DNA from: Methylotenera sp. G11
GTDB taxonomy: Bacteria; Pseudomonadota; Gammaproteobacteria; Burkholderiales; Methylophilaceae
Direction of reading: 5' to 3'
NCBI RefSeq assembly: GCF_000799735.1
Contig: NZ_JUHH01000001.1
Location: 62,001 to 126,000 of the forward strand
Length of the DNA stretch: 64,000 nt
In this document: in pieces, positions 37,767-55,251 of the stretch
Layout: the number at the start of each line of letters is the position of its first letter
How positions within the stretch are numbered: the stretch's first letter is position 1
Notes under the pieces: generated by a model
Database searches by the model: none
What the model was told of the DNA's origin: nothing
The model's input: the letters and a program-made list of their open reading frames with translations, nothing else
Program-made: the position numbers and the translations under genes

Positions 37767-38888
37767 ATGGGACATATCGCATTTAATGATTATGGTGAGG
37801 CAGAATATAAAGCATTAAGCGGCCCTTCCGTTATCACATTCAAGAATCCAAGCCAGGTAAGCTTATCCATAAGGGCAAGCGCCCTAGTTTTTGAGGATGC
37901 TGAATCACGTAAGCTGCTTTCTTTGATTGAACGCGTTGCCCCCAGTGACGTGACTGCTTTCATCATGGGAGAAACGGGAACCGGTAAAGAGTTGGTCGCA
38001 CGGCATTTGCATGCGCTAAGCCCCAGAAGGTACGGGCCATTTGCAGCCATCAATTGCGGCGCATTCTCGGAGTCTTTGGTCGAAAGTGAATTGTTTGGAC
38101 ATGAGAAAGGTTCTTTTACCGGTGCGATTGCCAGTAAACAAGGATGGTTTGAAAGTGCAAACGGCGGCACATTGTTTCTGGATGAAATCGGTGATCTTCC
38201 CTTGTCGACGCAGGTCAAATTATTGCGTGTGATCCAGCAGCGTGAGATCGTGCGTGTTGGTTCCAGAAAGGCGATACCCATTGATGTAAGGCTGGTGGCC
38301 GCAACCAATGTGAACCTGGAAGATGCGGTCAAAGCCGGGCGCTTTAGGGAGGACTTGTACTATCGGATCAATGTCGTGCCTATTCAGATCGCGCCGTTGC
38401 GCAATCGGCCTGGCGACATTCTGCCGCTAGCAGAGCATTTTTTATCCATCTATAAAAGCAGGCTGCAAACCAGGCAGCCTGCATTATCAGCTGAAACCAT
38501 ACAGTTGCTGCACCAGTATCCATGGCCGGGCAACATACGCGAGCTGGAAAACGTGATTCACCGGGCACTGCTGGTCAGTGATGGCATCGAACTGCGCCCG
38601 CGTGACCTGAACTTGCCGTCAATACAGCTGGGTTCAGGCACATCTTCAGCCGGTGCTGTGCACGAAGCAGGATCCCATTCGGTAAACCAGCAAACATGCA
38701 CATTGGATAAAGCCCTGGCTGAAATGATTCAGCATGAGCCTGAGAAACTGTATGAGACCGTTAACCGTAAATTAGTGCTCGGCGCTTACGCATATTGCAG
38801 GGAGAACCAGGTGCAGACAGCCAGGGTGCTTGGCATCAGCAGAAATATATTACGCACGCTCCTTAAGCAGTTCGGCGTGATTCAATAA
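37767..38888 (+). CDS. sfnR: Sigma-54-dependent activator, SfnR-like
   Basis: Enhancer-binding protein of 373 residues that should open sigma-54 promoters. It has only a short N-terminal stretch (about 45 residues, no receiver, PAS or GAF domain). The AAA+ domain follows: Walker A GETGTGKE at 78-85, the sigma-54-contacting GSFTGA loop at 125-130, Walker B LFLDE at 136-140, and arginine-finger region FREDLYYRINV. A C-terminal Fis-type HTH reads QTARVLGISRNILRTLLKQFG. This architecture matches SfnR, which activates sulfone/sulfonate genes in pseudomonads. The ATG at 37767 has TTGGAG upstream. Five candidate -24/-12 promoters lie in the following 13 kb. Confidence 0.85.
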   Translation: MGHIAFNDYGEAEYKALSGPSVITFKNPSQVSLSIRASALVFEDAESRKLLSLIERVAPSDVTAFIMGETGTGKELVARHLHALSPRRYGPFAAINCGAFSESLVESELFGHEKGSFTGAIASKQGWFESANGGTLFLDEIGDLPLSTQVKLLRVIQQREIVRVGSRKAIPIDVRLVAATNVNLEDAVKAGRFREDLYYRINVVPIQIAPLRNRPGDILPLAEHFLSIYKSRLQTRQPALSAETIQLLHQYPWPGNIRELENVIHRALLVSDGIELRPRDLNLPSIQLGSGTSSAGAVHEAGSHSVNQQTCTLDKALAEMIQHEPEKLYETVNRKLVLGAYAYCRENQVQTARVLGISRNILRTLLKQFGVIQ

Positions 38889-38916
38889 TCTGGAAATACC
38901 CTTTGTTAGCTTTGCA

Positions 38917-38954
38917 ACACCTCTGCTTCCAAATGAGCAGAGGTGTTTTTTTTT
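38917..38954 (+). terminator. Rho-independent terminator after the sfnR-like gene
   Basis: A perfect 11-bp stem (ACACCTCTGCT / AGCAGAGGTGT) with an 8-nt loop runs into nine T residues. It isolates the activator gene from the msuE promoter. Confidence 0.95.
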
Positions 38955-38965
38955 AGCTAAGAATT

Positions 38966-38988
38966 CAGCAGAAACCTACTGTTTCAGT
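38966..38988 (+). promoter_or_regulatory. Candidate upstream activator site for msuE
   Basis: CAGCAGAAAC-CTACT-GTTTCAG carries a GAAAC/GTTTC inverted repeat, 12-35 bp before the -24 element. The 10-mer CTACTGTTTC recurs exactly upstream of the TonB-receptor gene (from 46957). It is a plausible binding site for the SfnR-like activator, though close to the promoter. Confidence 0.35.
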
Positions 38989-38999
38989 CATTTTATCCG

Positions 39000-39013
39000 G
39001 GCACGGATCGTGC
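39000..39013 (+). promoter_or_regulatory. Sigma-54 (-24/-12) promoter of msuE
   Basis: GG at 39000-39001 and GC at 39012-39013 with exactly ten bases between (GGCACGGATCGTGC), against the consensus TGGCACG-N4-TTGC. The GC is 69 nt before the msuE ATG. Confidence 0.75.
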
Positions 39014-39081
39014 TAACCCTATTGATGGATAGCATGGCTATGTTTAACTTAATGACGCATTATTTGCATAAGGATTAAAAA

Positions 39082-39630
39082 ATGAAAATCGTTGGTATAT
39101 CAGGAAATATCAGTGCGCCTTCCCGCACCAGGGCTTTGGTTGAGAATATAACGCAGCAAGCTGCGCAGAAAGCGCACACCAAACCCACGCTGATCGATAT
39201 TGCCCAGTTTGCAGCTGAGCTTGGCAGCACGGTGAGTTATGAAAACTTCCCGCAGGTACTGTCGGATGCCTATCAGGCGATTGAAGCCGCTGATCTGATT
39301 GTCATTGGCACTCCAGTATACAAAGCCTCATATACCGGGCTGTTAAAACACTTCTTTGACTTGCTGGATCCTAAAAAGCTGACTGGCAAGGTTGCGATCC
39401 TGGCTGCCACTGGCGGTACAGACCAGCATGCGCTGGTGCTGGAGTATCAGCTAAGGCCACTGGCCAGTTTCTTTGGTGTGGCAACGGCGCCCACCGCAAT
39501 ATATGCACGTGATAATGAGTTCATAGATTACCGGCTGAATAGCGATGCCATAGAAAGCAGGATCGATACTGCGGTTAATCAGGCGTTTAATTTATTGGAT
39601 CACAAGGCCGCACAGGCACTCGCAGCTTAA
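39082..39630 (+). CDS. msuE: NAD(P)H-dependent FMN reductase, MsuE/SsuE-like
   Basis: Supplies FMNH2 to two-component flavin monooxygenases. The 182-residue flavodoxin-like protein has the phosphate-binding GISGNISAPSRTRALVE loop at residues 5-21, IGTPVYKASYTGLLKHFFDLLD, and LAATGGTDQHAL. It resembles MsuE/SfnE reductases encoded with methanesulfonate and sulfone monooxygenases. It is transcribed alone, from a -24/-12 promoter. Its likely partners are the two SsuD-like monooxygenases encoded at 51.2-53.4 kb. Confidence 0.88.
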   Translation: MKIVGISGNISAPSRTRALVENITQQAAQKAHTKPTLIDIAQFAAELGSTVSYENFPQVLSDAYQAIEAADLIVIGTPVYKASYTGLLKHFFDLLDPKKLTGKVAILAATGGTDQHALVLEYQLRPLASFFGVATAPTAIYARDNEFIDYRLNSDAIESRIDTAVNQAFNLLDHKAAQALAA

Positions 39631-39649
39631 CGGTTGTAGCGGTTGATGT

Positions 39650-39684
39650 AAAAAAGCCCATGCATTCCCCGCATGGGCTTTTTA
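39650..39684. terminator. Bidirectional terminator between msuE and exbD
   Basis: AAAAAGCCCATGC and GCATGGGCTTTTT form a perfect 13-bp stem with a 7-nt loop, with A/T runs on both sides. It serves the convergent msuE and exbD transcripts. Confidence 0.95.
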
Positions 39685-39703
39685 TTGGTTCATTGCGGCT
39701 GTT

Positions 39704-40111
39704 TTAATTGGATTGCGTTATTACCGCAAGCTTGGTGATGCCGGACCGTTCAATCGCAGCCATTACTTTGGCTACGGACCCGTATTTAACGGACTCGTCT
39801 GAACTCAGGTGGTATACCAGCTCAGGGTTGGCGTCGTGTCTCGATTTCAGTTCCGGTTCAAGTGCTGCAAGTGTCACGGCCTGTTTGTCGATGTAAACAT
39901 TGCCTTCAGCATTTACGCTGATCGTCACCGGTTTACCTGGATCGGGTTCTTTGGTCGCCGCGGTCTTGGGCAGGTTCACGTGGATCGCATTATTCAGCAG
40001 CGGCGCCGTGACGATAAACACCACCAGCAGCACCAGCATGACATCCACCAAGGGCGTCACGTTGATCTCGCTCAGAACGTCATCGCCATCACTTTGAGAT
40101 GAGAAAGCCAT
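39704..40111 (-). CDS. exbD: Biopolymer transport protein ExbD
   Basis: Proton-channel partner of ExbB that energises TonB. The 135-residue protein has one N-terminal membrane helix (residues about 18-36), whose DVMLVLLVVFIV segment carries the essential Asp, and a periplasmic domain. The start ATG shares one base with the exbB stop (TAATG). It is the last gene of the ssuB-tonB-exbB-exbD operon. Confidence 0.94.
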   Translation of the reverse strand: MAFSSQSDGDDVLSEINVTPLVDVMLVLLVVFIVTAPLLNNAIHVNLPKTAATKEPDPGKPVTISVNAEGNVYIDKQAVTLAALEPELKSRHDANPELVYHLSSDESVKYGSVAKVMAAIERSGITKLAVITQSN

Positions 40112-40833
40112 TATGCTATCGCTCCTTTCAGGCTATGCACCACCGATTTTTCAGTTGAAGCGGCAACCGCTTCAACATTCTTCCTGAACGTTGCTTTACG
40201 TGACAATGTGATAAAGTCTTCAGCAAAGTCATCCAGGTTGTTGCTGCTGGTTTTTAGCCTGCGCAGGAAAAAGTTATAGGCCAGCACCGCCGGTACAGCC
40301 ACAGCGATACCGACCGCAGTGGCAATCAGCGCTTCACCGATCGGCCCGGCAACCACGTCAAGGCTGGCAGAACCGGTCTTGCTGATTTCAGTCAGTGCAT
40401 GCATGATGCCCCAGACGGTGCCGAACAGACCCACAAAAGGTGCCGTGCTGCCGATGCTGGCAAGCACGACCAATCCGCTCTCACGTGTGACGCGCTCTTT
40501 TTGTATCTGCTGACGCAGCGCACGTTCCAGCACTTCCTGCCTGTCACCGAAATGCTGTAAATCATTGGCTGAGTTTGAATCGATATCCTTCAGCGCGTTA
40601 AAACCTACCGTGGCCACCCTGAACGCCGGGCCATTGTGGCTTTCCAGGCTCGCTGCGGATTTAAAATCAGGCGCGCTCCAGAACGCGGCGCGGAACCTGA
40701 CGTTCTGTTTACGTATCAGCCATACCTGCAATGATTTGGCGAGTATCAGTGTCCAGGTGATGACCGATCCTGCGATCAGCGTGAAAAGCACGCCCTGAAC
40801 CACGATTGATGTAGAAGAAGAAAAATTAAACAT
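40111..40833 (-). CDS. exbB: Biopolymer transport protein ExbB (MotA/TolQ/ExbB family)
   Basis: Inner-membrane proton-channel subunit of the TonB system, 240 residues with three transmembrane helices. The family core GLVVLASIGSTAPFVGLFGTVWGIMHAL and PIGEALIATAVGIAVAVPAVLAYNFF is present. The start has AAAGGTGA upstream. It lies 13 nt from tonB and overlaps exbD. Confidence 0.94.
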   Translation of the reverse strand: MFNFSSSTSIVVQGVLFTLIAGSVITWTLILAKSLQVWLIRKQNVRFRAAFWSAPDFKSAASLESHNGPAFRVATVGFNALKDIDSNSANDLQHFGDRQEVLERALRQQIQKERVTRESGLVVLASIGSTAPFVGLFGTVWGIMHALTEISKTGSASLDVVAGPIGEALIATAVGIAVAVPAVLAYNFFLRRLKTSSNNLDDFAEDFITLSRKATFRKNVEAVAASTEKSVVHSLKGAIA

Positions 40834-40846
40834 TGTTATATCACCT

Positions 40847-41665
40847 TTATTTAGCTAGTTTGAATTCAATAGGGACAGTCGCCCAGCCATCGATGGCAGT
40901 GCTGCCACGTTTGGAAGGAATGAATGTCCAGTTTCTGACGGCAGTAAGTGCTGATTCATCCAGGGTTTTGCGGCCACTGGATTGTTTTATTTCCACTTTG
41001 TCTGGCTTACCGCTTGCCAGCACGTGAACGCGCAGCAATACTTTTCCTTCCCAACCCTGGCGTTGCGCGAATGCAGGATAGTCCGGGGACGGGTTGTTTA
41101 AATACGCCGCGTTGCCGATTGCCTCGGTAACGGGCTCTTCTGCCTTCACAGCTTGCGGAGCCTCAGGCACCGGTGCGGCAGCAACCACAGGTGCGCTACT
41201 GACCGGAGCCTCACGGTTCTCAGGCACGGTAATGGCGGCGGGTGCTGCATTCTCCTGCGCGGCGGCAGTACGCAGGGCAGGCGCCGGTTTGGCCACGGGC
41301 GGCGGCGCCTGTTTGATCACTTTAGGCGGTGGCGGCGGTGGTGGTTTCGGCGGTTCAACTACCTCGGGCGGCTGGGGTTTGATAAACTCAATTTCGACTT
41401 TGTTGACCTTAGGCTGCGGAACGGTTGTTGATTCCGGGTAGTTCAGGTATGCAAGCACCGCAGCACCATGCAGTAAAACGGTCAGGCCAGCCAAAGCCCA
41501 GGTGCTGCGGCCGGCAGGAATTGCGTGACCAGCCTCTTTGTCAGGATGCAGATCGCCTGGTGCCGCTGTCCGTCTTGCCGCAGCTTCAGGCTTATTTGAA
41601 GTCGCCACGGCGCTGTTTTCATCAAGCTCATAAAATGTCGCTGTAGCGTTTGTGAATGTTGCCAT
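40847..41665 (-). CDS. tonB: TonB energy-transducing protein
   Basis: Links the ExbBD proton channel to outer-membrane receptors. The 272-residue protein has an unusually long polar cytoplasmic N-terminus (about 52 residues), one membrane helix ([19 protein letters not shown]) and a periplasmic Pro-rich spacer ([21 protein letters not shown]). The folded C-terminal domain ends [13 protein letters not shown] and contains the [19 protein letters not shown] block. AGGAGAG precedes the ATG. A dedicated TonB next to an ABC ATPase suggests service to the receptor encoded at 47.2 kb. Confidence 0.93.
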
Positions 41666-41704
41666 GCTATCTCTCCTGCCAAATGCGTTTATTTACAGAT
41701 CGCA

Positions 41705-42598
41705 TCACTCAACCTCGACGATTGCAAAATCAGCCATGACATCAGCCTTGATGCTCTGGAATAAAAAAGATGACCTGTCGCGTGGCCGGGCCAGCGGCAC
41801 CGGAACGATACGCCGGATGCGGCCAGGATGGGATTCCATGACCACGATACGGTCGCCGAGAAACACAGCCTCCTCAACATCGTGCGTTACCAGGATAGTA
41901 GTCAGGCCTTCATGTTCCCACAGGCGCTGCAGTTCCTGCTGCAATTTGAGGCGGGTAAGTGCGTCCAGTGCACCGAAAGGCTCATCCAGCAACAATAGTT
42001 TCGGCTTCAGAACAAGGGCTCTGGCAATCGCGACCCGCTGTGACATGCCGCCTGATATCTGGTGCGGATAGGCTTTTTCGAATCCATTCAGGCCTACCGT
42101 GCTGATCTGTTTTGCCACGCGCAGCTTGCGCTCTTCCCTGGAGACGTCGGTTGCAGTGAAAGCCAGTGCAATATTTTCTTCAACCGTGAGCCAGGGGAAT
42201 AAGCGGTGTTCCTGAAATACTATGCCCCGGCTTAGATCGGTGCCGGTAATGGCCTGACCCTGATAAATGATGGATCCGGTATAGCTGGTATCCAGCCCTG
42301 CTATCAGCCTGAGCAGTGTGGATTTGCCGCATCCGCTGGCACCGACGATGGAAAGGAACTCGCCAGGCTTGATTTCCAGGTGAATACCATTCAGGACATT
42401 CAAAGACACATCATGCAGCTGATAGCTCTTGCTGACATCTTGAATGAGCAAAGAAGCATCATTAATTTCCTGATGGCTCCCTTCGATGCCAGAACCTTCA
42501 GCGTTACTGGCTCCTGAATGGTAATTTGCCGCTATCTGAACCCTCGCTGAAGGCGCCGCTCTTTTGTCGAGGCTGATAGCTACGTTATATGTTGTCAT
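41705..42598 (-). CDS. ssuB: Sulfonate/nitrate-type ABC transporter ATP-binding protein (SsuB-like)
   Basis: Energy-coupling ATPase of an aliphatic-sulfonate-type importer, 297 residues. Walker [11 protein letters not shown]-loop [11 protein letters not shown], signature ISGGMSQR, Walker [13 protein letters not shown] and the H-loop THDVEEAV are intact. The protein carries an N-terminal polar extension of about 50 residues before the ABC core. The ATG at 42598 is preferred; an in-frame extension runs to 42658. It is divergent from the operon encoding the permeases and binding protein, and heads the ssuB-tonB-exbBD transcript. Confidence 0.9.
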
Positions 42599-42654
42599 GC
42601 CTTTGATTCTCCATACCGATAAACAATAGCCATAAATGGCGATAAACCTATACA

Positions 42655-42668
42655 GCAATCGCTATGCC
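42655..42668 (-). promoter_or_regulatory. Sigma-54 (-24/-12) promoter of ssuB-tonB-exbBD
   Basis: On the minus strand the site reads TGGCATA-N4-TTGCT, with GG (42668-42667) and GC (42656-42655) separated by ten bases; the TTGC -12 box is exact. It is 57 nt before the ssuB ATG. Confidence 0.68.
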
Positions 42669-42734
42669 AATATATTTTTATCATTTAAATCATATGGTTA
42701 ACATTTTTTGACATGGGGTCGCGGGCTTGGTTTG

Positions 42735-42754
42735 CTGTTTAAGCAGCAGTTGTT
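42735..42754 (+). promoter_or_regulatory. Candidate upstream activator site shared with the TonB-receptor promoter
   Basis: CTGTTTAAGCAGCAGTTGTT here and CTGTTT(CT)AAGCA(A)GCAGTTGTT at 46959-46982 differ only by two small insertions. Both lie 100-160 bp upstream of a -24/-12 promoter, as expected for an enhancer-binding-protein site. Confidence 0.45.
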
Positions 42755-42911
42755 AAAAACATGCTGTTGAATTAGCAGCATGTCGAATCTGCTGCCTGTA
42801 CAGCAGGGCTGCTGCCCTTTGCGCATATCCGCTGTATTTTATCCAGCAGCTGGCAATCGTCTTTCAATCTATTTTTTTATAAGTTGTTGATTTTTATTTA
42901 TTTATTTTTAT

Positions 42912-42925
42912 GGCACGAAGTGTGC
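42912..42925 (+). promoter_or_regulatory. Sigma-54 (-24/-12) promoter of the dszB-like/ssuA/ssuC operon
   Basis: TGGCACG-AAGT-GTGCT has the exact -24 heptamer and GG-N10-GC spacing. The GC is 69 nt before the start codon at 42994, the same as for msuE. Confidence 0.8.
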
Positions 42926-42993
42926 TCATGCCTATATGTAAATAAATACAACATCAGGCACGGGCCTGCATTTATATAACTTAGGAGAGATTC

Positions 42994-44049
42994 ATGAGTA
43001 AAGTCTTAGATACGCTTTGGTATACACGCTGCCCTGTGCCGACAGGATTGGGGATCGCCGTGCAGAAAGGCTGGCTGGAAGAGAGCTTCCGCGCAAAAGC
43101 CACAACCATCAGATCACTGCGCGAATCCGCCGATCAATCAGTGCGTGAATCGCATTTTGATCATACGCTGGCCAATTCAGTCAGGCATGGTGGCAATATC
43201 CCTGCGATATGGGCACGTTCAGCTGGCCGTGAAACCAAAGTGATCGGTCTCTCATGGGCAGACGAAACGCAGCTGATCCTGACACTGCCCGGTTCAGGAA
43301 TACGTCATGTCAAGGATCTGAAAGGGCGTAAATTCGGTTTGCCGAAATGGGTGAATGTGCAGATTGATTTTGTGCGTGCCCAGGCATTGCGCGGTCTCGA
43401 AAACGCGCTCAGTCTGGAAGGTCTGGCCGTGAGTGATGTTGAGCTCGTGGACTATGTGATTGATAGCGGCTACAGCGATGCGCCGGCCAAAAAAAGCGAA
43501 GATGGCAGCTATATCTTCGGCAGCCAGTCAGGCAGCCGTAATGACGAGCTGATTGGCCTGCTGCGCGGCGAAGTCGATGCGATCTTCCTGAAAGGCGCCA
43601 GTGCCGCGGCGCTGGCATATCAATTTAACCTGGTTACGGTCATTGATACCGGTGTGCATCCTGATCCGCTGATACGTGCCAATAATGGTACGCCGCGCAC
43701 GCTCACGGTTGATGCCAGCCTGATTGAGAACCACTTTGATGCTGCGGAGCGCATTGTCGAACAGGTGCTGCGTGCCGAAGACTGGGCACATGAACATCCT
43801 GATGAAACAAGGCGTTTCCTCGCCAAAGAGACCAACAGCAGCGAGTATTGGGTAAGCGTTGCTTATGGGCAGGATGCACATCTGCGTCTGCGTACGGATT
43901 TTGCCCGGGAATCTGTAGATGGACTACAGGATTTCGTGAACTTCCTGCATCGCTGGCAATTTATTCCCAAGCGATTCGATGTGAATGACTGGATCGATAC
44001 CCGGCCTTTTGACGCAGTGATCCGCAAGCGCCTGATCAGTGCTGCCTGA
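42994..44049 (+). CDS. DszB-like desulfinase candidate (SsuA-fold, cytoplasmic), copy 1
   Basis: A 351-residue protein with the periplasmic-binding-protein fold of the SsuA/Thi5/DszB superfamily but no signal peptide, so it should be cytoplasmic. It resembles DszB, the 2'-hydroxybiphenyl-2-sulfinate desulfinase: LWYTRCPVPT aligns with the segment around catalytic Cys27 (Cys13 here). HFDHTLANSVRHGGNIP aligns with the His60/Arg70 segment (His54 and Arg64, same ten-residue spacing). The inferred role is C-S cleavage of a sulfinate to release sulfite. It is first in an operon with ssuA and two permeases, with TAGGAG upstream. An alternative is a non-enzymatic substrate-binding protein. Substrate unknown. 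Confidence 0.7.
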   Translation: MSKVLDTLWYTRCPVPTGLGIAVQKGWLEESFRAKATTIRSLRESADQSVRESHFDHTLANSVRHGGNIPAIWARSAGRETKVIGLSWADETQLILTLPGSGIRHVKDLKGRKFGLPKWVNVQIDFVRAQALRGLENALSLEGLAVSDVELVDYVIDSGYSDAPAKKSEDGSYIFGSQSGSRNDELIGLLRGEVDAIFLKGASAAALAYQFNLVTVIDTGVHPDPLIRANNGTPRTLTVDASLIENHFDAAERIVEQVLRAEDWAHEHPDETRRFLAKETNSSEYWVSVAYGQDAHLRLRTDFARESVDGLQDFVNFLHRWQFIPKRFDVNDWIDTRPFDAVIRKRLISAA

Positions 44050-44104
44050 TTGCATAAGGCCTGCTTCCGTCAGGCCTTATCTTGTTTTTGAATGTGAGAA
44101 TAGA

Positions 44105-45199: not shown

Positions 45200-45202
45200 T
45201 GA

Positions 45203-46832: not shown

Positions 46833-46856
46833 GCACAATTGATCTACAGGCAATTG

Positions 46857-46982: not shown

Positions 46983-47080
46983 AATACCCTGTTGCCAGCA
47001 CAACACAAGCCAAAACCAAAAAATGCGTTTATGGTTTTTTTAATCAATTAAATCAATTGGTTATTATTTTGATTGCCACT

Positions 47081-47094
47081 GGCACAGATTCTGC
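47081..47094 (+). promoter_or_regulatory. Sigma-54 (-24/-12) promoter of the TonB-dependent receptor gene
   Basis: CTGGCACA-GATT-CTGCA: GG-N10-GC is exact and the -24 half is TGGCACA. The GC is 68 nt before the ATG at 47162. Confidence 0.78.
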
Positions 47095-47161
47095 AATATC
47101 TCTCTTGTTGATGCGCATGCAAGCGCAAGGCAGATTTTATTAACAGTAAAGAGAGTATTCA

Positions 47162-49567
47162 ATGAGAAGTGAAGCAATCAATCACGCTTACCAGCGTCAC
47201 GGTAAATTTAAATTAAAGCCATTGGTCAAGCATGTATCCATTGCACTGGCAATCGGGTCCGGTGTTGTTTTAAACGGTGGCTATGCCTATGCAGAAGAAG
47301 CTGCGCCAATTCAGGCGCAAGACAAATCCTCAATAGATGACAAAACAAAGTTAGATGACAAAACAAAAGCAGAAGGCACGGCTTTGCCTTCTGTCACGGT
47401 GACGTCACAGAAGCGTGAAGAAAGCGTACAGGAAGTCAAGACTGCGATTACCGCGCTGAATGGCAAGGATCTTTTAGACCAGGGGGTAGGGCGCTCTGCA
47501 AGTGAAGTGCTGAACTATGTACCTAACGCTTCTGCCGGCACGCAGCTGCACGGTCGCCCACGCTGGTGGATCCGCGGTGTTGGCGCTGGACAGCAGCAGT
47601 TCGACCTTGCGAGCCCGGTCGGATTCTATCTGGATGAAGTGTATATCAGCAATGCCACGGCGACAGGGTTTCCTTTGTTTGACCTGGAGCGTGTTGAAGT
47701 ACTGCGCGGTCCGCAAGGGACGCTGTGGGGCAAGAACACGACCGGCGGCGCCGTGAGTGTCGTTTCAAAAAAACCGTCATTCAACGCCGATGCCAAAGAT
47801 AATTATGTGAAGGTTGATTATGGCAGCTATAACGATAGGATCGTGCAAGGCGGGGTAGGCGGTGTGATTCTGGATGAACGCCTGGCAGGACGCGTTTCTT
47901 TCTATCAGCAGGATCAGGATGGGCGCCTTAAAAATGACTTTACCGGCGGTAAAGATGGCGGCCTGAGTGAAGGGGCGATTCGCGGCCAGTTGTCAGCCAT
48001 CCTGACACCGAACCTGGAAGCGCTCCTGAATGTGCATTACCGTAAATATGAGACTGATGGTGCCATCACCACTACCAAAAGCTATGCGCCGAACGGCGTG
48101 GTGCGTAATGGCTATGCGCCGAATACCGATATCAAGCATGTCAGCACGAATGCGCCGGATTCAAGTGACTCAACCCAGAACGGCATCAACCTGAACCTGA
48201 AATGGCAGCTTGGCCGCTATGCATTGACTTCCATTACCGCCTATGAAGATTTTGAAACCAATATCCTGACCGATAATGACTACACGCCATTAGAGATTTC
48301 CAGGTCACATACCGATGGCAAGAGCAGGCAGTTCACGCAGGAAATCAGGCTGGCTTCACCCAGGGAAGACCGCTGGAACTGGTTGGCCGGCGCACATTAT
48401 TTCAATGAAAACATTGATTTCACCACGCAGGGCGCCAAGCTGCCGTCCGCTTCAGTGCCGGGTCTGGCAGGCGCTCCGCCTGGCGCGACTTACAATAGCT
48501 CAGACCTCAATCATAAGGCTGAGAGTTTTGCATTGTTCGGCAGTAATACCTATAACTTTACCGACCAGCTGAATGCGACATTGGGCTTGCGATGGACGCG
48601 CGAGACCAAAAAATATGACCTGGACAGGAAAGCCTCAACAGGCGCGGGGACATGGAGCAACCTGTCGCAGTGGTGGGATACTTACACCGGCGCGTATGCG
48701 GCAGCAGGCCCGTTGGGTTCCGGTACATTCAGCAGCAGTGATTCCAAGACCTGGAATGCGTTTACCTATGACATCACGCCTGAATACAAGATCACGCCGC
48801 ATGACCGCGTGTATGCAAAATATTCGCATGGCGTGAAGTCCGGTGGTTTTAATACTGCCGCCACCAGCCTTGCAGCGGTGAATACGGTGAAACCTGAGCA
48901 GTTAAATGCGTATGAGATCGGCTACAAGTCAGAATGGCTGGGAGGCCGGGTTAACTTCAATGCCAGCCTGTTCCATTACGATTACCAGGATGTGCAGGTG
49001 AACGTGGTCGGGTATAACGCCAATGCCGGCGCCACCGTTTCTTATCTGCAGAATGCCAAGAAGGCGACTGTGAATGGCGCGGAGTTCGAAATCGAAGCGC
49101 TGCCTGTCGAGAACCTGCATGTGAATGCAAGCCTGGGCCTGCTGGATACCGAATATGATGAGCTGAATGTGCTTAACGGCGGTGCCGATTTGAAAGGACG
49201 TTCCCTGGTGCGTTCTCCGCATGTCACAGCCCAGATCGCGGCTGATTACACGATCCCTGTGCAGTACGGAAAAATCATTGTCGCGGCAGATGCACGTTAT
49301 CAGGGTAAACAGTATTACTTTGTTGACCCGCAGTCTGAAGCGCGTGAGCACTTGAATCAGGATGGTTACACACTCGCAAATGCAAGGCTTTCGTTCGCCA
49401 CCCATAACGACAAGTATGTCTTTACAGGTTATGTGAATAATCTTTTCGATAAAGAATACAAGAACCATTCACTGCCGGCATTCAATCCGGGATTGGGTGT
49501 CAATGGCGACAGCGTCTACTGGGCAGCACCAAGAACGGTAGGCGTTTCCGTAACGACCCGCTGGTAA
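47162..49567 (+). CDS. TonB-dependent outer-membrane receptor
   Basis: A 801-residue receptor with a long signal region (cleavage probably near GGYAYA-EE, residue 45). A short DDKTK repeat follows, then a TonB-box-like segment (SVTVTSQK) and a plug domain (VRGPQGTLWGKNTTGGAVSVVSKKP). The 22-strand barrel ends in the required aromatic residue (VTTRW). The plug motifs are those of general TonB receptors, not specific siderophore or B12 types. Given its -24/-12 promoter and neighbours, the likely ligand is an organosulfur compound; this is inference from context. Confidence 0.9.
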   Translation: MRSEAINHAYQRHGKFKLKPLVKHVSIALAIGSGVVLNGGYAYAEEAAPIQAQDKSSIDDKTKLDDKTKAEGTALPSVTVTSQKREESVQEVKTAITALNGKDLLDQGVGRSASEVLNYVPNASAGTQLHGRPRWWIRGVGAGQQQFDLASPVGFYLDEVYISNATATGFPLFDLERVEVLRGPQGTLWGKNTTGGAVSVVSKKPSFNADAKDNYVKVDYGSYNDRIVQGGVGGVILDERLAGRVSFYQQDQDGRLKNDFTGGKDGGLSEGAIRGQLSAILTPNLEALLNVHYRKYETDGAITTTKSYAPNGVVRNGYAPNTDIKHVSTNAPDSSDSTQNGINLNLKWQLGRYALTSITAYEDFETNILTDNDYTPLEISRSHTDGKSRQFTQEIRLASPREDRWNWLAGAHYFNENIDFTTQGAKLPSASVPGLAGAPPGATYNSSDLNHKAESFALFGSNTYNFTDQLNATLGLRWTRETKKYDLDRKASTGAGTWSNLSQWWDTYTGAYAAAGPLGSGTFSSSDSKTWNAFTYDITPEYKITPHDRVYAKYSHGVKSGGFNTAATSLAAVNTVKPEQLNAYEIGYKSEWLGGRVNFNASLFHYDYQDVQVNVVGYNANAGATVSYLQNAKKATVNGAEFEIEALPVENLHVNASLGLLDTEYDELNVLNGGADLKGRSLVRSPHVTAQIAADYTIPVQYGKIIVAADARYQGKQYYFVDPQSEAREHLNQDGYTLANARLSFATHNDKYVFTGYVNNLFDKEYKNHSLPAFNPGLGVNGDSVYWAAPRTVGVSVTTRW

Positions 49568-49591
49568 CGCGTTATCACGTAGTTGGTTCCG

Positions 49592-49631
49592 ATGACGCCA
49601 GATTTCCGCACGGTGATCTGGCGTCATTTTT
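49592..49631 (+). terminator. Terminator after the TonB-dependent receptor gene
   Basis: A perfect 12-bp stem (ATGACGCCAGAT / ATCTGGCGTCAT) with a 12-nt loop and a short T-run. Confidence 0.9.
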
Positions 49632-49710
49632 ATCGGCAAACCGACCCATCTCCGTTGCATCAGCACGAAGCACCATCATTTATCCAATTAGAATTTGAAA
49701 GCGCATCAAC

Positions 49711-50916
49711 ATGAGTCAGTCGAATACGCTCAATACACAGCCACGATTATTGGCGACCAACCATTTTACATTTGCATTTGTAGGCCTTGCCTTGATGAGC
49801 GGCATCACCATCGGTATGAACAAGATACTGGTGACGCTGCTGGCATTGCACCTGAATGCGGAGTCCTGGCAGATCGGGCTGCTGATCGGTGCGGAAAGCC
49901 TGTCCATGATGCTGATGTCGCTGCCGGCAGGTATTTACATCAGCCGTTTCAGCGCCCGCTGGGTATATGGCATCTCCAGCCTGGGCGCGATGGCGCTCTA
50001 CCCATTGATCGGATACTCCAGTTCCTGGTATCTGGCAGCGCTGTTTTTATTCATTGCGGGCATCTGTATCCCATTCCGCGTGGTTGCCATGAACACGTCA
50101 TGGCTGGAGCGCCTGCCGGAGGTCGGTACCAGCCGCGGAGGCTGGTACCGGGGCACGCTGATGCTGGGCATAGGCCTGGTTGGGCCGCTGCTGGGCAATC
50201 TGGCTTCCAGCCATTTCGGGGTGCATGGCAGCTACTGGATCACCAGCATCCTGTTTGCGGTGATGGCGTTCTACGGCTTTTCCATTCTCTCGCATACACG
50301 CAGCATGGATGACGCCAGAAGTGTCAGCGGCGGCGTAAAAGACATGCTGCGCTACCTGACAGACCCGATGGTGCGCCAGGTATGCATCTATGATGGCCTG
50401 GGCGGCATGGTGCGCGGTTTCTTTGGCACCTTCATCATCATCATTGCCGTCAGGCAGTTCAACTGGAGCGCACAGCAGGGGATTACGCTCATGGTGGTGG
50501 AAGGGGCGACTTTTGTTGCCGTACTGCTGCTGCTTGGCCATTTTGTGGCGAAACTGGGCGAGAAAACCACTTATAACTTGAGCCATGGCAGTTTGATCAC
50601 TGGCCTGCTGTTCCTGGGCTTGAGCAGCAGCGTTATCGGCCTGTTGATTGGCGCTGTGCTGCAGGCGATCGGGCAGGCGCTTAACCATCTGGTCAATATT
50701 TCGCGGCTGGCGCATTCCGGCAAGAACATGGGGCATGTTTCCGGATTGTTCACCATGGTAGGCATGGCTGGCGGCTTTGCCGGTGCAACCCTGGGCGGCT
50801 TTCTCAGCAAAGGGTTTGTGCTGCAGGATATATTCCTGCTCTGGATTCCGGTCTGGCTGGCGGTATGTCCGGGTTTCAGGGCATTCATAAAGAACATCTT
50901 CAAAAAAACGGCATAG
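49711..50916 (+). CDS. Major facilitator superfamily transporter
   Basis: A 401-residue inner-membrane protein with about twelve hydrophobic helices and the N-domain pattern of MFS permeases (RFSARWVYGISSLGAMALYPLIGYSS). Substrate cannot be read from sequence. Its place between the receptor and the monooxygenase operon suggests export of a desulfurised product or import of a sulfur source. No -24/-12 promoter is visible in front of it, and the Shine-Dalgarno is weak (GAAAG). It may be reached by read-through or have its own sigma-70 promoter. Confidence 0.85.
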   Translation: MSQSNTLNTQPRLLATNHFTFAFVGLALMSGITIGMNKILVTLLALHLNAESWQIGLLIGAESLSMMLMSLPAGIYISRFSARWVYGISSLGAMALYPLIGYSSSWYLAALFLFIAGICIPFRVVAMNTSWLERLPEVGTSRGGWYRGTLMLGIGLVGPLLGNLASSHFGVHGSYWITSILFAVMAFYGFSILSHTRSMDDARSVSGGVKDMLRYLTDPMVRQVCIYDGLGGMVRGFFGTFIIIIAVRQFNWSAQQGITLMVVEGATFVAVLLLLGHFVAKLGEKTTYNLSHGSLITGLLFLGLSSSVIGLLIGAVLQAIGQALNHLVNISRLAHSGKNMGHVSGLFTMVGMAGGFAGATLGGFLSKGFVLQDIFLLWIPVWLAVCPGFRAFIKNIFKKTA

Positions 50917-50943
50917 CTGTCATTTCAGTGTTTTGTCCATGTT

Positions 50944-50987
50944 CTGCAAAATCAACAGTGCTGCTTCCGGCTTTGTTGATTTTGCAG
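50944..50987. promoter_or_regulatory. 14-bp perfect inverted repeat upstream of the monooxygenase operon
   Basis: CTGCAAAATCAACA (50944-50957) and TGTTGATTTTGCAG (50974-50987) flank a 16-nt centre. The arms resemble CTGTTGAATTAGCAG at 42763-42777 in the ssu divergent region. No T-run follows, so an enhancer site for the sigma-54 activator is more likely than a terminator. It ends 98 bp before the -24 element. Confidence 0.5.
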
Positions 50988-51084
50988 CAGAAATTCACCC
51001 TATCTCTCATTCACAGTTCATTCGTATTTAAAAATACCTATATCAATCATATGGATATGGTTATTTTGATTGATGCCTGATATT

Positions 51085-51098
51085 GGCATGCATCCTGC
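51085..51098 (+). promoter_or_regulatory. Sigma-54 (-24/-12) promoter of the monooxygenase/dszB-like operon
   Basis: TTGGCATG-CATC-CTGCA: GG (51085-51086), ten bases, GC (51097-51098). The GC is 68 nt before the ATG at 51166, as for the TonB receptor. Confidence 0.78.
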
Positions 51099-51165
51099 AA
51101 TTTTAAGTGCATTGTCGCTATATTTTTGTAGCTAACGGATTCAGATTAACTTAAGGAGCCAATGC

Positions 51166-52239
51166 ATGACGACTGAATTTTTATGGCAATTACCGACCAG
51201 CGGTGATGGCCGCTATGGGAACAGTAAAAAAGAACGCCGCGGTGAACGCAGTTCAGCCCGCCACCCTTATTCGGAAGGGGTGACTGACCCGCGCGGTCTG
51301 AATTTTAACTATTTTGATTACCTGCACCAGGTAGCCCGTGCTGCCGAGCTTGCCGGCTTTGAAGGAATCCGTATCCCTGAAGACATCAATGGCGATGAGC
51401 CTTGGATCGTTGCCGGCTATGTTGCGCGCGGCAGCAGGCATTTAAAGCTGTTGACCGAGTTTGACGCTTCGCGCGGCTCTTCGGTATATGCCGCAAAGAA
51501 CACCGTAAGTTACCAGCGCTTCACTGATGGCCGGTTTGCATGGCAGATCAGCGCTGGCGGCAATGCGCAGCATCGCCGCTCATTGGGCGATTTTGCCGCA
51601 GATGATGAAATCATCCCGCGTATCGAGGAGTTCGTGACAGTTGCCCGCGGCGTGCTGACGCAGGCTCCTTACACCTTCAAAGGTAAATATTTCGAGGTGT
51701 TGAATGGCGGCTTCCAGGGTGCGCTGGCTAACCATAAAGTACCGCCGGTATATCTATCCGGCAATAGCAGCGAAGCATTGGCACTTTCTGCAAGAAGCGC
51801 TGATGTACATATTTTTGACGCTGCAGGTGTGGATGAGATCAGGCAACAGGTCGATGGATTAACTACGCTTGCCAGGCAGCATGGACGCAAGCTCGGTTTT
51901 GGCCTGCGTATCGATATCGTTGCGCGTGAAACGGAGCAGGAGGCCATTTCTGACGCACATAGGTTCCGTGAGCAGTCAGCTAACAAAAACGGCAGCCATG
52001 CCCAGCTTGCAGGCAGGCATCTATGGGCAGGGCTTTCAGCAGACATTACCGGCGCCAGCGCTACCCTGGTAGGCAGTTATGCGCAGGTCACGCAGGCGCT
52101 GGTTGATTACGCATCAGCCGGCATCACGAGCTTTCTGCTTTCATCGGTTCCCCATTTTGAAGAGGCCTGCCGCCTGGGGGAATACGTATTGCCTGCTGTT
52201 CGCGCTCAAATCGCACGTGACCAACGCCGTGCGGCTTAA
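51166..52239 (+). CDS. SsuD-like LLM flavin-dependent monooxygenase, copy 1 (diverged active site)
   Basis: Luciferase-like TIM-barrel flavoprotein of 357 residues, related to FMNH2-dependent alkanesulfonate monooxygenase. FLWQLPTSGDG replaces the FLPTHGDG of SsuD, so the position of His11 is Ser12. Aligning by eye, the SsuD residues Cys54, His228, Arg297 and Tyr331 are Gly, Asp, absent and Val here. The fold signature near the end (VPHFEEACRLGEYVLP) is kept. It should need MsuE-supplied FMNH2 if active. A paired role with copy 2 is possible. AAGGAG precedes the ATG. Confidence 0.82.
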   Translation: MTTEFLWQLPTSGDGRYGNSKKERRGERSSARHPYSEGVTDPRGLNFNYFDYLHQVARAAELAGFEGIRIPEDINGDEPWIVAGYVARGSRHLKLLTEFDASRGSSVYAAKNTVSYQRFTDGRFAWQISAGGNAQHRRSLGDFAADDEIIPRIEEFVTVARGVLTQAPYTFKGKYFEVLNGGFQGALANHKVPPVYLSGNSSEALALSARSADVHIFDAAGVDEIRQQVDGLTTLARQHGRKLGFGLRIDIVARETEQEAISDAHRFREQSANKNGSHAQLAGRHLWAGLSADITGASATLVGSYAQVTQALVDYASAGITSFLLSSVPHFEEACRLGEYVLPAVRAQIARDQRRAA

Positions 52240-52258
52240 TTAACTAAAGGAATATTTT

Positions 52259-53419
52259 ATGACTATTGATGTTTTTTGGCGTATCCCGACTCACGGGGAA
52301 CCCAGTTCACACCGCAACCGTACTCCGCATCGCGGCGACTGGTTCCCGGGTGACGATTCCAAGGCTGAGTCCGGCAGCGTGGGCAAAGGAAGCAACGGTG
52401 CGAACTACATAGATTACATTGCCGAGATCGCACATGCTGCAGAGATTTCAGGTTTCCAGGGCGGGCTGATCCCATCGTTCCCGATGACGGATGAACCGTG
52501 GGTGATTTCTTCATTGCTGGCACGTGAGACCTCTACTTTCCGTTTCATGATCCCATTCCAGCCTGGCTTCCTGAACCCGGTCGTGGCTGCGAGAATGACC
52601 GCGAGCCTGCAGCGTGCGACCGGCGGCCGCGCCTTGTATAACATCATTACCGGTGGTGGTGGCCCGGCACAGTTATGGTGGGGTGATTCCGCATCGCATG
52701 ATGACCGCTATGGCCGCACAACCGAGTTTCTGGATGTATTGAAAGGTGTCTGGAACGGCGGCCCGTTCTCGTATCAGGGCAAGTTCTATCAGGTGGAAGA
52801 TGCCGGTCTGGCCGATCCCTTATCCAAAGAAGAATATCCTGAGATCTATTTTTCAGGTTCATCCGATGCAGCGCTCGCTTCCGCCTCCAGGCATGCGGAT
52901 TATTACCTGACCTGGCTGGAGCCGTTTGACCAGCTGCGCGAGAAATTCGACCGCGTGAAGACGCGTACGCAAATCCTGGGCCGCAAGATCAAATGCGCCA
53001 TTCGCGTAGACATTATTGCACGCCCGACAGAGGAGGAGGCCTGGGCCGAGATTGAAAAAGGCTTTAACAGCCTGAGCCGCGAGGCTTTGGATAAGTTCCA
53101 GAATCCGGACGGCAGCGATTCCGTAGGCGCTGCACGCCAGCGCGGCAACCGCCCGACCACGATCAACAGCTATAAAGACCTGATTATCGAGCCCAATGTC
53201 TGGTCTGGCTTCAGCTTGCTGCGCGGCGGACAGACTAACGGTATTGTCGGCAGTTACGAGCAGGTGGCGGAACGGCTTGACGAGCTGGTGGCCTTAGGCG
53301 CTGACGCATTCATTCTGGCCAGCACCCCGCATCTGGAAGAAGCGTATCGTGTCGGTGAAGAAGTGCTGCCGCTGCTGCGCGGTAAAACCGATACTGCAAT
53401 CCTGCGTGCGGTGGGTTAA
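52259..53419 (+). CDS. SsuD-like LLM flavin-dependent monooxygenase, copy 2
   Basis: Second SsuD-family protein, 386 residues. FWRIPTHGE keeps the His11 equivalent (His12), and the LLRGG loop keeps the Arg297 equivalent. TPHLEEAYRVGEEVLP keeps the His333 equivalent but has Thr for Tyr331. Thr stands at the Cys54 position and Asp at the His228 position. It therefore probably oxidises a substrate other than simple alkanesulfonates, for instance a sulfone or an aromatic sulfur compound. AAAGGA precedes the start, 19 nt after copy 1. The DszB-like gene follows after 5 nt. Confidence 0.85.
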   Translation: MTIDVFWRIPTHGEPSSHRNRTPHRGDWFPGDDSKAESGSVGKGSNGANYIDYIAEIAHAAEISGFQGGLIPSFPMTDEPWVISSLLARETSTFRFMIPFQPGFLNPVVAARMTASLQRATGGRALYNIITGGGGPAQLWWGDSASHDDRYGRTTEFLDVLKGVWNGGPFSYQGKFYQVEDAGLADPLSKEEYPEIYFSGSSDAALASASRHADYYLTWLEPFDQLREKFDRVKTRTQILGRKIKCAIRVDIIARPTEEEAWAEIEKGFNSLSREALDKFQNPDGSDSVGAARQRGNRPTTINSYKDLIIEPNVWSGFSLLRGGQTNGIVGSYEQVAERLDELVALGADAFILASTPHLEEAYRVGEEVLPLLRGKTDTAILRAVG

Positions 53420-53424
53420 TCGAT

Positions 53425-54501
53425 ATGGCAAACCAATTATCGTCATCTCAGGCTGATGCATCAGCGCTGAAGGAAATCTGGTTTACCCGCTGCCCGGTAC
53501 CCACGGCAACCGGCCTGGCATATAAACTGGGGTGGCTGCAGGATGAGTTCGCAGGCGATGGCATATCGGTGGCAACCATACAGGACGCACCGAAAGCACT
53601 GGCGCGCCATCATTACGACCATGAAATCAGCAGCCTGATCCGCGAGGGCGGCAGCCTACTGGCGCTTGCGGCAAAAGCGCAGGGGGCGAGGACAAAGCTC
53701 ATCGGCCTGACATGGATAGATGAATGGCAGGTGATCCTGGTGCGGCCTGGTTCCGGCATCAGCAAACCGGCTGACTTGAAAGGCCTGCGCGTGGCCTTAC
53801 CCGCTTATGTAGCGCGTGAAATTCCTGCCCATGTCCGCGGCAGCAGCATTGCCCGCGGCATGAGCCTGCAAGGCATCAAGGGTGCGCTGGCACATGACGG
53901 CCTGACGCTGGATGACGTGAACTTTGTCGAGGTGGGTTCCGGCCAGGAGACCGGGGCTGGCTTGGGCAACCTGTGGGAAGGGCTGGAATATCTGGCGCGC
54001 GGCGAAGTGGATGCGGTTTATGTCAAAGGCGCCTCTGCGGTAGATGCAGCCAAGCGCTACGGTGCAGTGGTGGGTATCGACATCGATCACTTTACCGACC
54101 GCAGGTACCGCGTCAATAACGGCACGCCGAGGCCTATCACCGTGCATGAAGATTTCATTGAAAACCACTTTGATCTTTTAGTGCGGTTTCTGGCGCAGAC
54201 CTTGCGTGCCGCAGATTGGGCGGCGTCTGATCTGGCAGGCGTGCATGCCATATTGAAAAGTGAGACGCGCTCCGGTGATGAGGGTGTCGCCACCGCATAC
54301 CGCAACGGGTTTCATCATTCATTGCAGCCGACCCTATCCGGAGAGTTGCTGGATCTATTCAGGATACAGAAGAATTTCACACTGCTGCATGGGGTGTTGG
54401 ACCGTGATTTTGATCTGGATGCATGGATCGATCCACGTCCATTGGCTGCTGCCCGGCAGTGGCTGGATGCACATGATCAAACGCAGGTAAAAGCTGCGTG
54501 A
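53425..54501 (+). CDS. DszB-like desulfinase candidate, copy 2
   Basis: A 358-residue cytoplasmic protein (no signal peptide) related to copy 1 at 43.0 kb and to DszB. The Cys motif is IWFTRCPVPT (Cys23). The His/Arg motif is HHYDHEISSLIREGG, with His63 and Arg73 spaced as His60/Arg70 of DszB. A shared downstream block reads ARGEVDAVYVKGASA. Directly behind two flavin monooxygenases, it would complete an oxygenation-then-desulfination route that ends in sulfite, analogous to DszC/A then DszB. Activity is inferred; a non-catalytic binding role cannot be excluded. Confidence 0.72.
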   Translation: MANQLSSSQADASALKEIWFTRCPVPTATGLAYKLGWLQDEFAGDGISVATIQDAPKALARHHYDHEISSLIREGGSLLALAAKAQGARTKLIGLTWIDEWQVILVRPGSGISKPADLKGLRVALPAYVAREIPAHVRGSSIARGMSLQGIKGALAHDGLTLDDVNFVEVGSGQETGAGLGNLWEGLEYLARGEVDAVYVKGASAVDAAKRYGAVVGIDIDHFTDRRYRVNNGTPRPITVHEDFIENHFDLLVRFLAQTLRAADWAASDLAGVHAILKSETRSGDEGVATAYRNGFHHSLQPTLSGELLDLFRIQKNFTLLHGVLDRDFDLDAWIDPRPLAAARQWLDAHDQTQVKAA

Positions 54502-54534
54502 TTTTTTATTTATTCATATTCAAGGAGTTTTAAA

Positions 54535-55251
54535 ATGGGAAAGATTGATACCGAATTAGCCGCCGATGTAACGGCATTTGCACAGAACGTAGCGCGCGAG
54601 GCGGCTCATGCCTTTAAGGTGCTGCGTGAGACGGATACGACAACGGCCTACGGCACAGTAGGTTTTACCGTGCGCGTTCCGGGGCATGAGAAACTGGTGG
54701 TGGTGAACGATCCCGGCCCATGGGATAGAGGTGCTGAAATCACGCCGGCAATCATCGGCTTTGACGGTACTGTCTATGCCGGGCACCACACTGGCGGCAA
54801 GCGCTATAACAAACTGTTCATCGAGCGTCCTGAAGTCAGCATCATTTCACATGTCCACACCCTGTACCTGGCGGCGTGGGGGCAAACGCACCGTACTTTC
54901 CCTATCAATTATGTTGCGCTGAACCGTCACCACCTCGTGCGTGAACTCCCGGTCTACATCAACCGCCTGCAACCGGAAGTGGATTTTATCGTCGAAAAAG
55001 TAAATGAGAACCCGCACAATTTTGCCATCGTGGAAGCCAACGGCGGCGGCACCGTCTGGGGCAAGGCCGGTATCCGCGAGCTGACGGATACCATCATCCT
55101 GCTTGAAGAGGCGGCACGCTTGCAGCTGCTGGCTGAGGCTGTAGGCGGCTCACGTAATTATGGCGCCGGTGCACTGCGGCAGAACTGGAAGATGACGGGT
55201 CTGTTCGATGAAGCCAAGACCCTTGGTTTGCTGCCGATCACGGATATTTAA
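54535..55251 (+). CDS. Class II aldolase/adducin-like protein in the organosulfur operon
   Basis: A 238-residue protein with the class II aldolase/adducin fold. The metal-binding HVH pair appears in SIISHVHTLYLAAWG (residues about 102-116). The acid Glu that normally precedes this segment in fuculose-phosphate-type aldolases is not evident; GGKRYNK occupies the place. ANGGGTVWGKAG follows in the region of the third ligand, which I cannot identify with certainty. It is last in the monooxygenase operon, 33 nt after the DszB-like gene, with AAGGAG upstream. It may process the carbon skeleton after desulfurisation. Function unknown. Confidence 0.7.
   Translation: MGKIDTELAADVTAFAQNVAREAAHAFKVLRETDTTTAYGTVGFTVRVPGHEKLVVVNDPGPWDRGAEITPAIIGFDGTVYAGHHTGGKRYNKLFIERPEVSIISHVHTLYLAAWGQTHRTFPINYVALNRHHLVRELPVYINRLQPEVDFIVEKVNENPHNFAIVEANGGGTVWGKAGIRELTDTIILLEEAARLQLLAEAVGGSRNYGAGALRQNWKMTGLFDEAKTLGLLPITDI

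Follow-up and report, generated by a model that had tools for sequence, protein, structure and literature searches.

Relation to described systems

Among described systems, those closest to the locus reported here are the actinobacterial 4S (Dsz) pathway for thiophenes, whose desulfinase DszB, according to the abstract of PMC12168087, is known for being slow in the desulfurization of fossil fuels, and the alkanesulfonate systems encoded by ssuEADCB and msuEDC. The locus is a cluster of 16 intact open reading frames (ORFs; tonB, exbB, and exbD counted in) at 37755–55251 (~17.5 kb) of a 64-kb window, which comprises positions 62001–126000 of the single-contig 2.545-Mb genome of Methylotenera sp. 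G11 (NZ_JUHH01000001.1); positions below are those of the window unless another genome or locus is named. The cluster probably serves to strip sulfur from an organic compound, and we lean, with modest confidence, towards reading it as a horizontally acquired, sigma-54-controlled island that would scavenge sulfur by flavin-dependent oxidation followed by desulfination.

The cluster encodes two DszB-like proteins, which resemble DszB in family membership by profile, in a Cys/His/Arg/Gly residue set, and in having no signal-peptide-like N terminus. It differs from the Dsz system in the replaced aryl-pocket residues of these proteins, in its sigma-54-type promoters, in the presence of two DszB-like copies, and in having SsuD-type monooxygenases instead of DszA/DszC-type enzymes; in addition, Pseudomonas relatives of the set carry serine paralogues. 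An SsuABC-type importer, an MsuE-type reductase, an SsuD-related luciferase-like monooxygenase (LLM2), and an SfnR-like regulator are shared with ssuEADCB and msuEDC, whereas the DszB pair, a second monooxygenase (LLM1), a TonB receptor with TonB-ExbBD, and an aldolase-fold protein are found in the cluster alone, and the MsuC-type (PF08028) enzyme of msuEDC is not encoded in the genome. LLM1 and LLM2 also recall LuxA and LuxB, an adjacent, related TIM-barrel pair of which one member has a shortened mobile loop, but they are SsuD-related and stand in a sulfur context. The original prediction had likened the cluster to the 4S route in logic but with other enzymes; it would indeed work like the 4S or the msu route, while the features tested make it a member of neither.

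A further parallel is found on a plasmid of Sphingobium sp. TomTYG65 (AP027331.1), which carries genes for the regulator, SsuABC, the aldolase-fold protein, and the TonB receptor, together with homologues of LLM2 (64%) beside LLM1 (35%) and of DszB1 (69%). Unlike the cluster, it has a third DszB-family gene and a third ssuD-type gene, along with a gene for a nitroreductase and an ATP-binding cassette (ABC) exporter gene pair. The DszB homologue of this strain is annotated as soxB, which we take to be an older name of dszB.

Organization of the cluster

All genes named in the original prediction, which had placed the system at 37767–55251, were present, each with a family match in profile searches; the mechanically called ORFs span 37755–55251. 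The cluster is arranged as the regulator gene and msuE; exbD, exbB, tonB, and ssuB on the minus strand; dszB1-ssuA-ssuC-ssuC; the TonB receptor gene; the major facilitator superfamily (MFS) transporter gene; and LLM1-LLM2-dszB2-ald, with intergenic gaps of 19 (LLM1/LLM2), 5 (LLM2/dszB2), and 33 bases (dszB2/ald). A comparative synteny search, proposed with the original prediction, returned the identical order in Methylotenera oryzisoli (locus L004) for 15 genes, all that its 21-kb locus covers, and in another genome of the genus (G069) for all 16 genes. The cluster is therefore not due to chance.

LLM1 and LLM2 were the only matches to PF00296 at E ≤ 1e-10 in the whole genome, and both were closest to SsuD/MsuD. 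Because the only luciferase-type monooxygenases of the genome sit in the cluster, its earlier description as a self-contained system is supported; that of a complete pathway is a prediction.

DszB-like proteins

DszB1 (42994–44049, plus strand) and DszB2 (53425–54501, plus strand) share 39% identity. The best solved relative of both is DszB (2de2; E = 7.7e-10 and 4.1e-8, respectively, in single-sequence phmmer searches), and a profile built from 34 relatives matched DszB at E = 3.9e-35 and SsuA at E = 6.3e-6. Cys27, His60, Arg70, and Gly73 of DszB, which entered the residue alignment as residues 17–334 only, align with Cys13, His54, Arg64, and Gly67 of DszB1 and with Cys23, His63, Arg73, and Gly76 of DszB2, so that the Cys/His/Arg correspondence expected at the outset was recovered in both copies. 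By hydropathy, a signal-peptide-like N terminus is absent from both proteins but present in the SsuA of the cluster, which is without the Cys/His/Arg set of DszB. Arg70, Gly72, and Gly73 (DszB numbering) were present in all 191 relatives and His60 in 180 of them, two duplicate records having been removed (L084 and L086, the same DNA as L004 and L005; the alignment thus has 192 rows with DszB). In the phylogenetic tree, the groups containing DszB1 and DszB2 hold solely Cys and His at these positions (32 and 21 sequences, the two duplicate records still included; supports low, 0.71 and 0.22).

In the named loci, paralogues with Ser for Cys lie directly behind the Cys copy in 40 of 43 cases. An LLM2 homologue of 35–60% identity is encoded immediately upstream of a DszB1-type gene in 37 of 48 cases, and a close LLM2 (≥70%) immediately upstream of DszB2 in 6 of 12.

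Tandem Ser-for-Cys paralogues in Pseudomonas (e.g., L029 at 11128 and L035 at 11090) are natural counterparts of a Cys27Ser variant. Other DszB-fold paralogues, encoded beside the cluster in L022 (5664), L032 (4191), L046 (6320), L047 (6310), and L059 (5626), have Arg where Cys would be expected, and four of these five also have Tyr at the His position.

The LLM1-LLM2 pair

LLM2 (52259–53419, plus strand), the probable catalytic subunit, is related to the SsuD/MsuD monooxygenases that use reduced flavin mononucleotide (FMNH2) and matched MsuD (7jv3) at E = 1.1e-68. It preserves His10, Asn104, Trp195, Arg225, and Arg296 of MsuD, the roles of the compared site residues being those given in PMC8234197. 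The SsuD-related LLM1 (51166–52239, plus strand) scored 180 bits against an SsuD cut-off of 518 and has lost most residues of the sulfonate site, namely His10, Thr49, Arg77, Asn104, and Trp195, as well as Arg296 in the window copy. Its lid segment (Arg225 to the LVG motif) is short, with 54 residues in the window copy and 28–54 in 12 LLM1 relatives, compared with 79 in MsuD and 81–82 in LLM2 and its 12 close relatives.

The two genes occur together. In the named loci, LLM1 directly adjoins a close LLM2 in 12 of 12 cases and a close LLM2 adjoins LLM1 in 12 of 12, and the pair was found in all three further genomes with a close LLM2 (L116, L117, and L118); in L119, the LLM2 homologue is only 47% identical, LLM1 is missing, and a DszB1 relative adjoins. 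In bacterial luciferase, the mobile loop of LuxA is partly missing from LuxB. The short lid of LLM1 parallels this loss, which suggests by analogy an LLM1-LLM2 heterodimer with LLM2 as the catalyst, and LLM1 is probably a LuxB-like structural, non-catalytic partner. Thus, of the two SsuD-like monooxygenases described earlier, both exist, but they do not appear to be equal catalysts.

No DszA-type (NtaA/DmoA) monooxygenase was present among the whole-genome PF00296 matches at E ≤ 1e-10. Whole-genome searches at E ≤ 1e-5 likewise returned no match to TauD or to PF08028, the DszC-type C-terminal domain, other acyl-CoA-dehydrogenase models not having been searched.

Predicted sigma-54 control

The SfnR-like sigma-54 activator (37755–38888, plus strand, with an ATG at 37767; PF00158, E = 3.1e-70) has an AAA+ domain that starts at residue 45, with no sensor domain ahead of it. 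Its best plasmid match, at 56% identity, is a sigma-54 regulator encoded on a Pseudomonas aeruginosa plasmid ahead of msuE-ssuD-acyl-CoA dehydrogenase, in agreement with the original assignment as SfnR-like, and rpoN is encoded in the genome.

Five of the 10 strict sigma-54-like (−24/−12) sites of the window precede genes of the cluster in the correct orientation. They stand before msuE (38999–39014, plus strand; also in 7 of 8 relatives, L004 being the exception), ssuB-tonB-exbB-exbD (42654–42669, minus strand; also in L004, L005, and L085, the last being the locus of G069), dszB1 (42911–42926, plus strand, one mismatch; also in L004 and L005), the TonB receptor gene (47080–47095, plus strand; 34 of 56 receptor homologues), and the LLM1-LLM2-dszB2-ald operon (51084–51099, plus strand; 6 of 12 LLM1 genes). 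About 0.17 sites would be expected in the ~1.16 kb of stretches holding these five, the stretches having been picked out after the scan. Over the whole window, sigma-54-like counts were not above chance (14 vs. 12.4 and 143 vs. 155.7; strict, 10 vs. 9.6 under a Markov model), and neither was the sigma-70 scan (16 vs. 18.4); because the whole-window counts match chance, the case for sigma-54 is argued from position, orientation, and conservation only. Among relatives, for which a gene was counted only if its upstream sequence reached 200 bases or more, such sites precede ald in 35 of 62, dszB2 in 31 of 47, and LLM2-type genes in 43 of 77, besides the fractions given above for msuE, the TonB receptor, and LLM1, while the opposite-strand control gave 46 of 780 after removal of the two duplicate records.

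The region separating the divergent promoters of ssuB and dszB1 contains three enhancer-like dyads of the form TGCTG-N6/9-CAGCA (42733–42805, starting at 42733, 42762, and 42790), and no others occur in the window (Markov mean 0.62, maximum 3 in 100). The dszB1 genes of G069 and L004 are also preceded by dyads. After near-duplicate removal had left 139 of 213 upstream stretches, all of which already had a sigma-54-like site, TGCTG-N3/6/9-CAGCA was found upstream of that site in 81. By spacing (N3, N6, and N9), the dyad occurred in 45, 59, and 21 of the 139 stretches, compared with 71, 45, and 16 of 2680 random stretches from the same loci. As judged from these upstream sites, the gene set is a predicted sigma-54 regulon.

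Horizontal acquisition

A tRNA-Pro (GGG) gene (36974–37050, plus strand; ARAGORN) marks the left edge of the island and is its probable integration target. It is followed by a tyrosine-integrase remnant (37088–37627, minus strand; PF00589, E = 7e-19) that retains the C-terminal catalytic half only, no N-terminal half being found in frame; PADLOC returned nothing for this remnant. In two genomes of the same genus without the cluster (G060 and G112), the window gene at 61379 lies ~2.4 kb after tRNA-Pro, whereas here it lies 24 kb downstream. The cluster of G069 is located at ~103.7–121.1 kb and its pheT-tRNA-Pro region at 1.73 Mb, and none of the other proteins of the window matched within 7 kb on either side of that cluster. 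Since G069 carries the 16 genes at another site without the neighbours seen in the window, 37755–55251 is the shared unit, with cysI outside it. No repeat of at least 14 bases of the 3′ half of tRNA-Pro, as expected for attR, was found in the window, and the right boundary was therefore set by comparison with relatives. By genome comparison, the cluster is a transferable, horizontally acquired unit beside tRNA-Pro.

Distribution and relatives

DszB relatives proved to be widespread among other Gram-negative bacteria. In the GTDB collection, 153 loci encode a relative of DszB1, the nearest named one being that of Methylotenera oryzisoli (89%); 80 of the 153 were kept and belong to Pseudomonas, Janthinobacterium, Massilia, Duganella, sphingomonads, methylotrophs, and others. 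Co-occurrence was counted in the 71 of these 80 named loci with enough sequence, uncorrected for relatedness and with many Pseudomonas loci among them: at least two DszB-family genes were present in 68, an aldolase-like gene in 57, a TonB-receptor homologue in 57, an SsuD-type LLM (≥35%) in 51, and the regulator in 20, the TonB-receptor and ABC-ATPase counts taking in distant homologues from ~28% identity. A length filter left out 6 of 197 DszB-family, 7 of 91 LLM, and 2 of 62 aldolase-like sequences. DszB-family genes (E ≤ 1e-30) occurred in 18 of 150 genomes of the methylotroph family Methylophilaceae and close LLM2 (E ≤ 1e-100) in 5 of 300 genomes of the order, the own genome included in both, and 82 plasmid records contained a DszB relative at E ≤ 1e-30. 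No description of this cluster or of Gram-negative DszB homologues was found in the open-licence full-text literature, subscription papers not being covered.

In Sinorhizobium and Paracoccus, the DszB homologue, with Cys, His, and Arg kept, is encoded directly after an acyl-CoA-dehydrogenase-family gene; in Sinorhizobium an NtaA/DmoA gene follows 2.8 kb downstream, giving a 4S-like set. One Pseudomonas locus also has an acyl-CoA-dehydrogenase-family gene beside its DszB homologue. Hence, the absence of a DszC-type enzyme, noted in the original prediction, holds for the own genome as far as PF08028 is concerned but not as a general trait.

On the alphaproteobacterial plasmids L121 (8750–15135) and L122 (7782–10038), an acyl-CoA-dehydrogenase-family gene directly precedes the DszB homologue, and L121 has an NtaA/DmoA monooxygenase gene nearby, a 4S-like set. 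In sphingomonads and Pseudomonas, fused membrane-ATPase ABC gene pairs lie near DszB genes (L120, 15086–18725, exporter type by Pfam; L035, 4590–8454); there is none in the cluster of the window.

Proposed pathway and alternative explanations

Each reaction proposed here, desulfination included, is one that we infer from the gene set. A sulfonate or sulfone would be taken up by the TonB receptor with its own TonB-ExbB-ExbD, the SsuABC-type importer, and the MFS transporter. MsuE would deliver FMNH2 to the LuxAB-like pair, with LLM2 as the catalyst and LLM1 as the lid-less partner, and the pair would oxidize the imported compound to a sulfinate. DszB1 and DszB2, as cytoplasmic desulfinases of SsuA-type fold, would hold the sulfinate by Arg64 and Arg73, respectively, and the glycines that follow, attack it with Cys13 and Cys23, and free sulfite, which would pass to the sulfite reductase of the cell; the carbon product would probably be processed by the aldolase-fold protein. 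The presence of two DszB-like proteins suggests two sulfinates or two substrate classes.

Several observations weigh against this scheme. The nucleophile is not universal, the position of Cys27 being Cys in 138, Ser in 45, Arg in 5, and Gly in 3 of the 191 relatives. Gln65, Trp155, and Leu226, which we take to be aryl-pocket residues of DszB, are replaced in both window copies and nearly throughout the family (7 of 191 relatives keep Gln65, and none keeps Trp155 or Leu226); the substrate therefore need not be aromatic, and the original suggestion of a possibly aromatic compound is weakened. LLM2 scores 279 bits, where the SsuD equivalog model requires 518, and carries Ser for Thr49, Pro for Ala75, Gln for Arg77, Asp for His227, and Gln for Ser299 of MsuD, and dszB1 of the window does not adjoin a monooxygenase gene. 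Promoter-like sites are sparse before dszB1-type (32 of 147), ssuB-type (5 of 125), regulator (1 of 23), and MFS genes (0 of 36), many of these genes lying inside operons. The enhancer dyad is missing from L005 and from L123, the single P. aeruginosa msu locus that was inspected, which does have a sigma-54-like site, so that the regulon looks like a sister of the SfnR/msu regulon rather than that regulon itself.

One alternative, which we consider unlikely, is that the DszB-like proteins are cytoplasmic proteins handling or binding sulfinates or sulfonates, or other sulfur-ester hydrolases, of this same fold, and that, as in SsuD, the flavin monooxygenase by itself releases the sulfite. In its favour, Arg and Gly-Gly do not vary in the family whereas the Cys does, Ser paralogues mostly follow directly on a Cys copy, and the window copies match the SsuA_fam binding-protein model, albeit below its cut-off (85.5 and 55.2 vs. 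163.5 bits). The tree groups of the two window copies nevertheless hold only Cys and His, and the profile matches DszB far better than SsuA, both of which argue against this reading. A slightly less probable account is an ordinary alkanesulfonate (ssu/msu) system in which LLM2 performs SsuD chemistry and the remainder is accessory. LLM2 is closest to MsuD/SsuD, keeps five residues of the MsuD site, and is accompanied by SsuABC and MsuE-type genes; yet the changes His227 to Asp and Ser299 to Gln are shared by all 12 close relatives of LLM2, LLM1 and LLM2 both score far under the SsuD cut-off, at least two DszB-family genes accompany nearly all of the loci counted, and the msu locus of the P. 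aeruginosa plasmid has no adjoining DszB, aldolase, or TonB receptor gene.

It is quite improbable that the cluster serves to take up and oxidize one particular, larger natural product that contains sulfur, with specificity set by the TonB receptor and sulfur release secondary. The receptor does share the cluster with a TonB-ExbB-ExbD set, homologues of it, some just distantly similar, recur in most loci, and the pesticin receptor is the only solved receptor matched, but no metal-handling gene is among the 16, and the regulator and reductase are of sulfur-starvation types. Beyond the reading of the cluster as a sulfur-scavenging island acting by oxidation and desulfination, we put forward tentatively, as a possibility that we hold somewhat doubtful, a widespread Gram-negative organosulfur pathway in which DszB-like desulfinases are fed by a LuxAB-like SsuD-type heterodimer under a sigma-54 enhancer regulon of their own, with the Ser paralogues as natural partners or as another chemistry of this fold. 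If so, thiophene desulfurization by the actinobacterial 4S pathway would be an offshoot of a more ancient route acting on a natural substrate. A large pool of relatives tied to a sulfur-type regulon would give desulfinases a natural role and an origin, provide new biocatalysts, and point to a sulfur source that can be tested in methylotrophs. The enhancer motif and a compact system in a 2.5-Mb genome without further luciferase-type monooxygenases make the pathway directly testable.

Other genes of the cluster and window

The aldolase-fold protein (ald; 54535–55251, plus strand) belongs to PF00596 (E = 7.2e-9; 36.2 bits, cut-off 22.2), which confirms the family membership predicted earlier. The third metal histidine of class II aldolases lies in an NHG motif; here HxH is kept in 61 of 61 aldolase-like sequences, and the third His is replaced (NGG) in all 61, so that the metal site expected of the family is only partly present. 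As a single query, the protein found nothing genuine among solved structures; a profile of the aldolase-like sequences matched class II aldolase folds and the decarboxylase NovR weakly (best E = 1.4e-4). The reductase gene msuE (39082–39630, plus strand; PF03358/FMN_red, E = 8.5e-32) probably encodes an MsuE-type enzyme, as originally named; its TIGR03566 score of 209.7 bits falls just below the cut-off of 212.5.

The uptake genes on the minus strand are exbD (39704–40111; PF02472, ExbD), exbB (40111–40833; PF01618, MotA_ExbB), tonB (40847–41665; PF03544, TonB_C), and the gene for the SsuB-like ABC ATPase (41705–42658; PF00005, ABC_tran, E = 6.4e-35). On the plus strand are the genes for the SsuA-like periplasmic binding protein (44039–45199; NMT1/SsuA_fam; 3uif, E = 7.6e-105), two SsuC-like permeases (45203–45991 and 46047–46832; PF00528, BPD_transp_1), the TonB-dependent receptor (47162–49567; PF00593 and PF07715, barrel and Plug), and the MFS transporter (49711–50916; PF07690, MFS_1), a relative of which is encoded in 33 of the 71 loci. 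The mechanical ORFs of ssuB and ssuA are over-extended, the likely starts by eye being 42598 (minus strand) and 44105 (plus strand). The only solved match of the receptor at E ≤ 1e-10 was the pesticin receptor (E = 7.5e-18), and both monooxygenases matched Bac_luciferase, as ald did Aldolase_II.

Next to the cluster, outside the shared unit, stands the sulfite-reductase-type gene cysI at 55528. The cysI/DUF934/ccoG trio (55528–59382) was considered as part of the system and rejected, as its genes stand together elsewhere in the cluster-free genomes G060 and G112 and the cysI relative of G069 lies at 1.58 Mb, away from its cluster. The protein encoded at 55528, a cysI-type sulfite/nitrite reductase, is 59% identical to the copy of the genome at 385 kb; that other cysI-type gene and two genes of the 3′-phosphoadenosine 5′-phosphosulfate reductase family lie together at 382.8–386.9 kb of the genome. 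Near the end of the window, an ORF on the minus strand (63102–63578) encodes a small retropepsin-like (gag-asp family) aspartyl protease.

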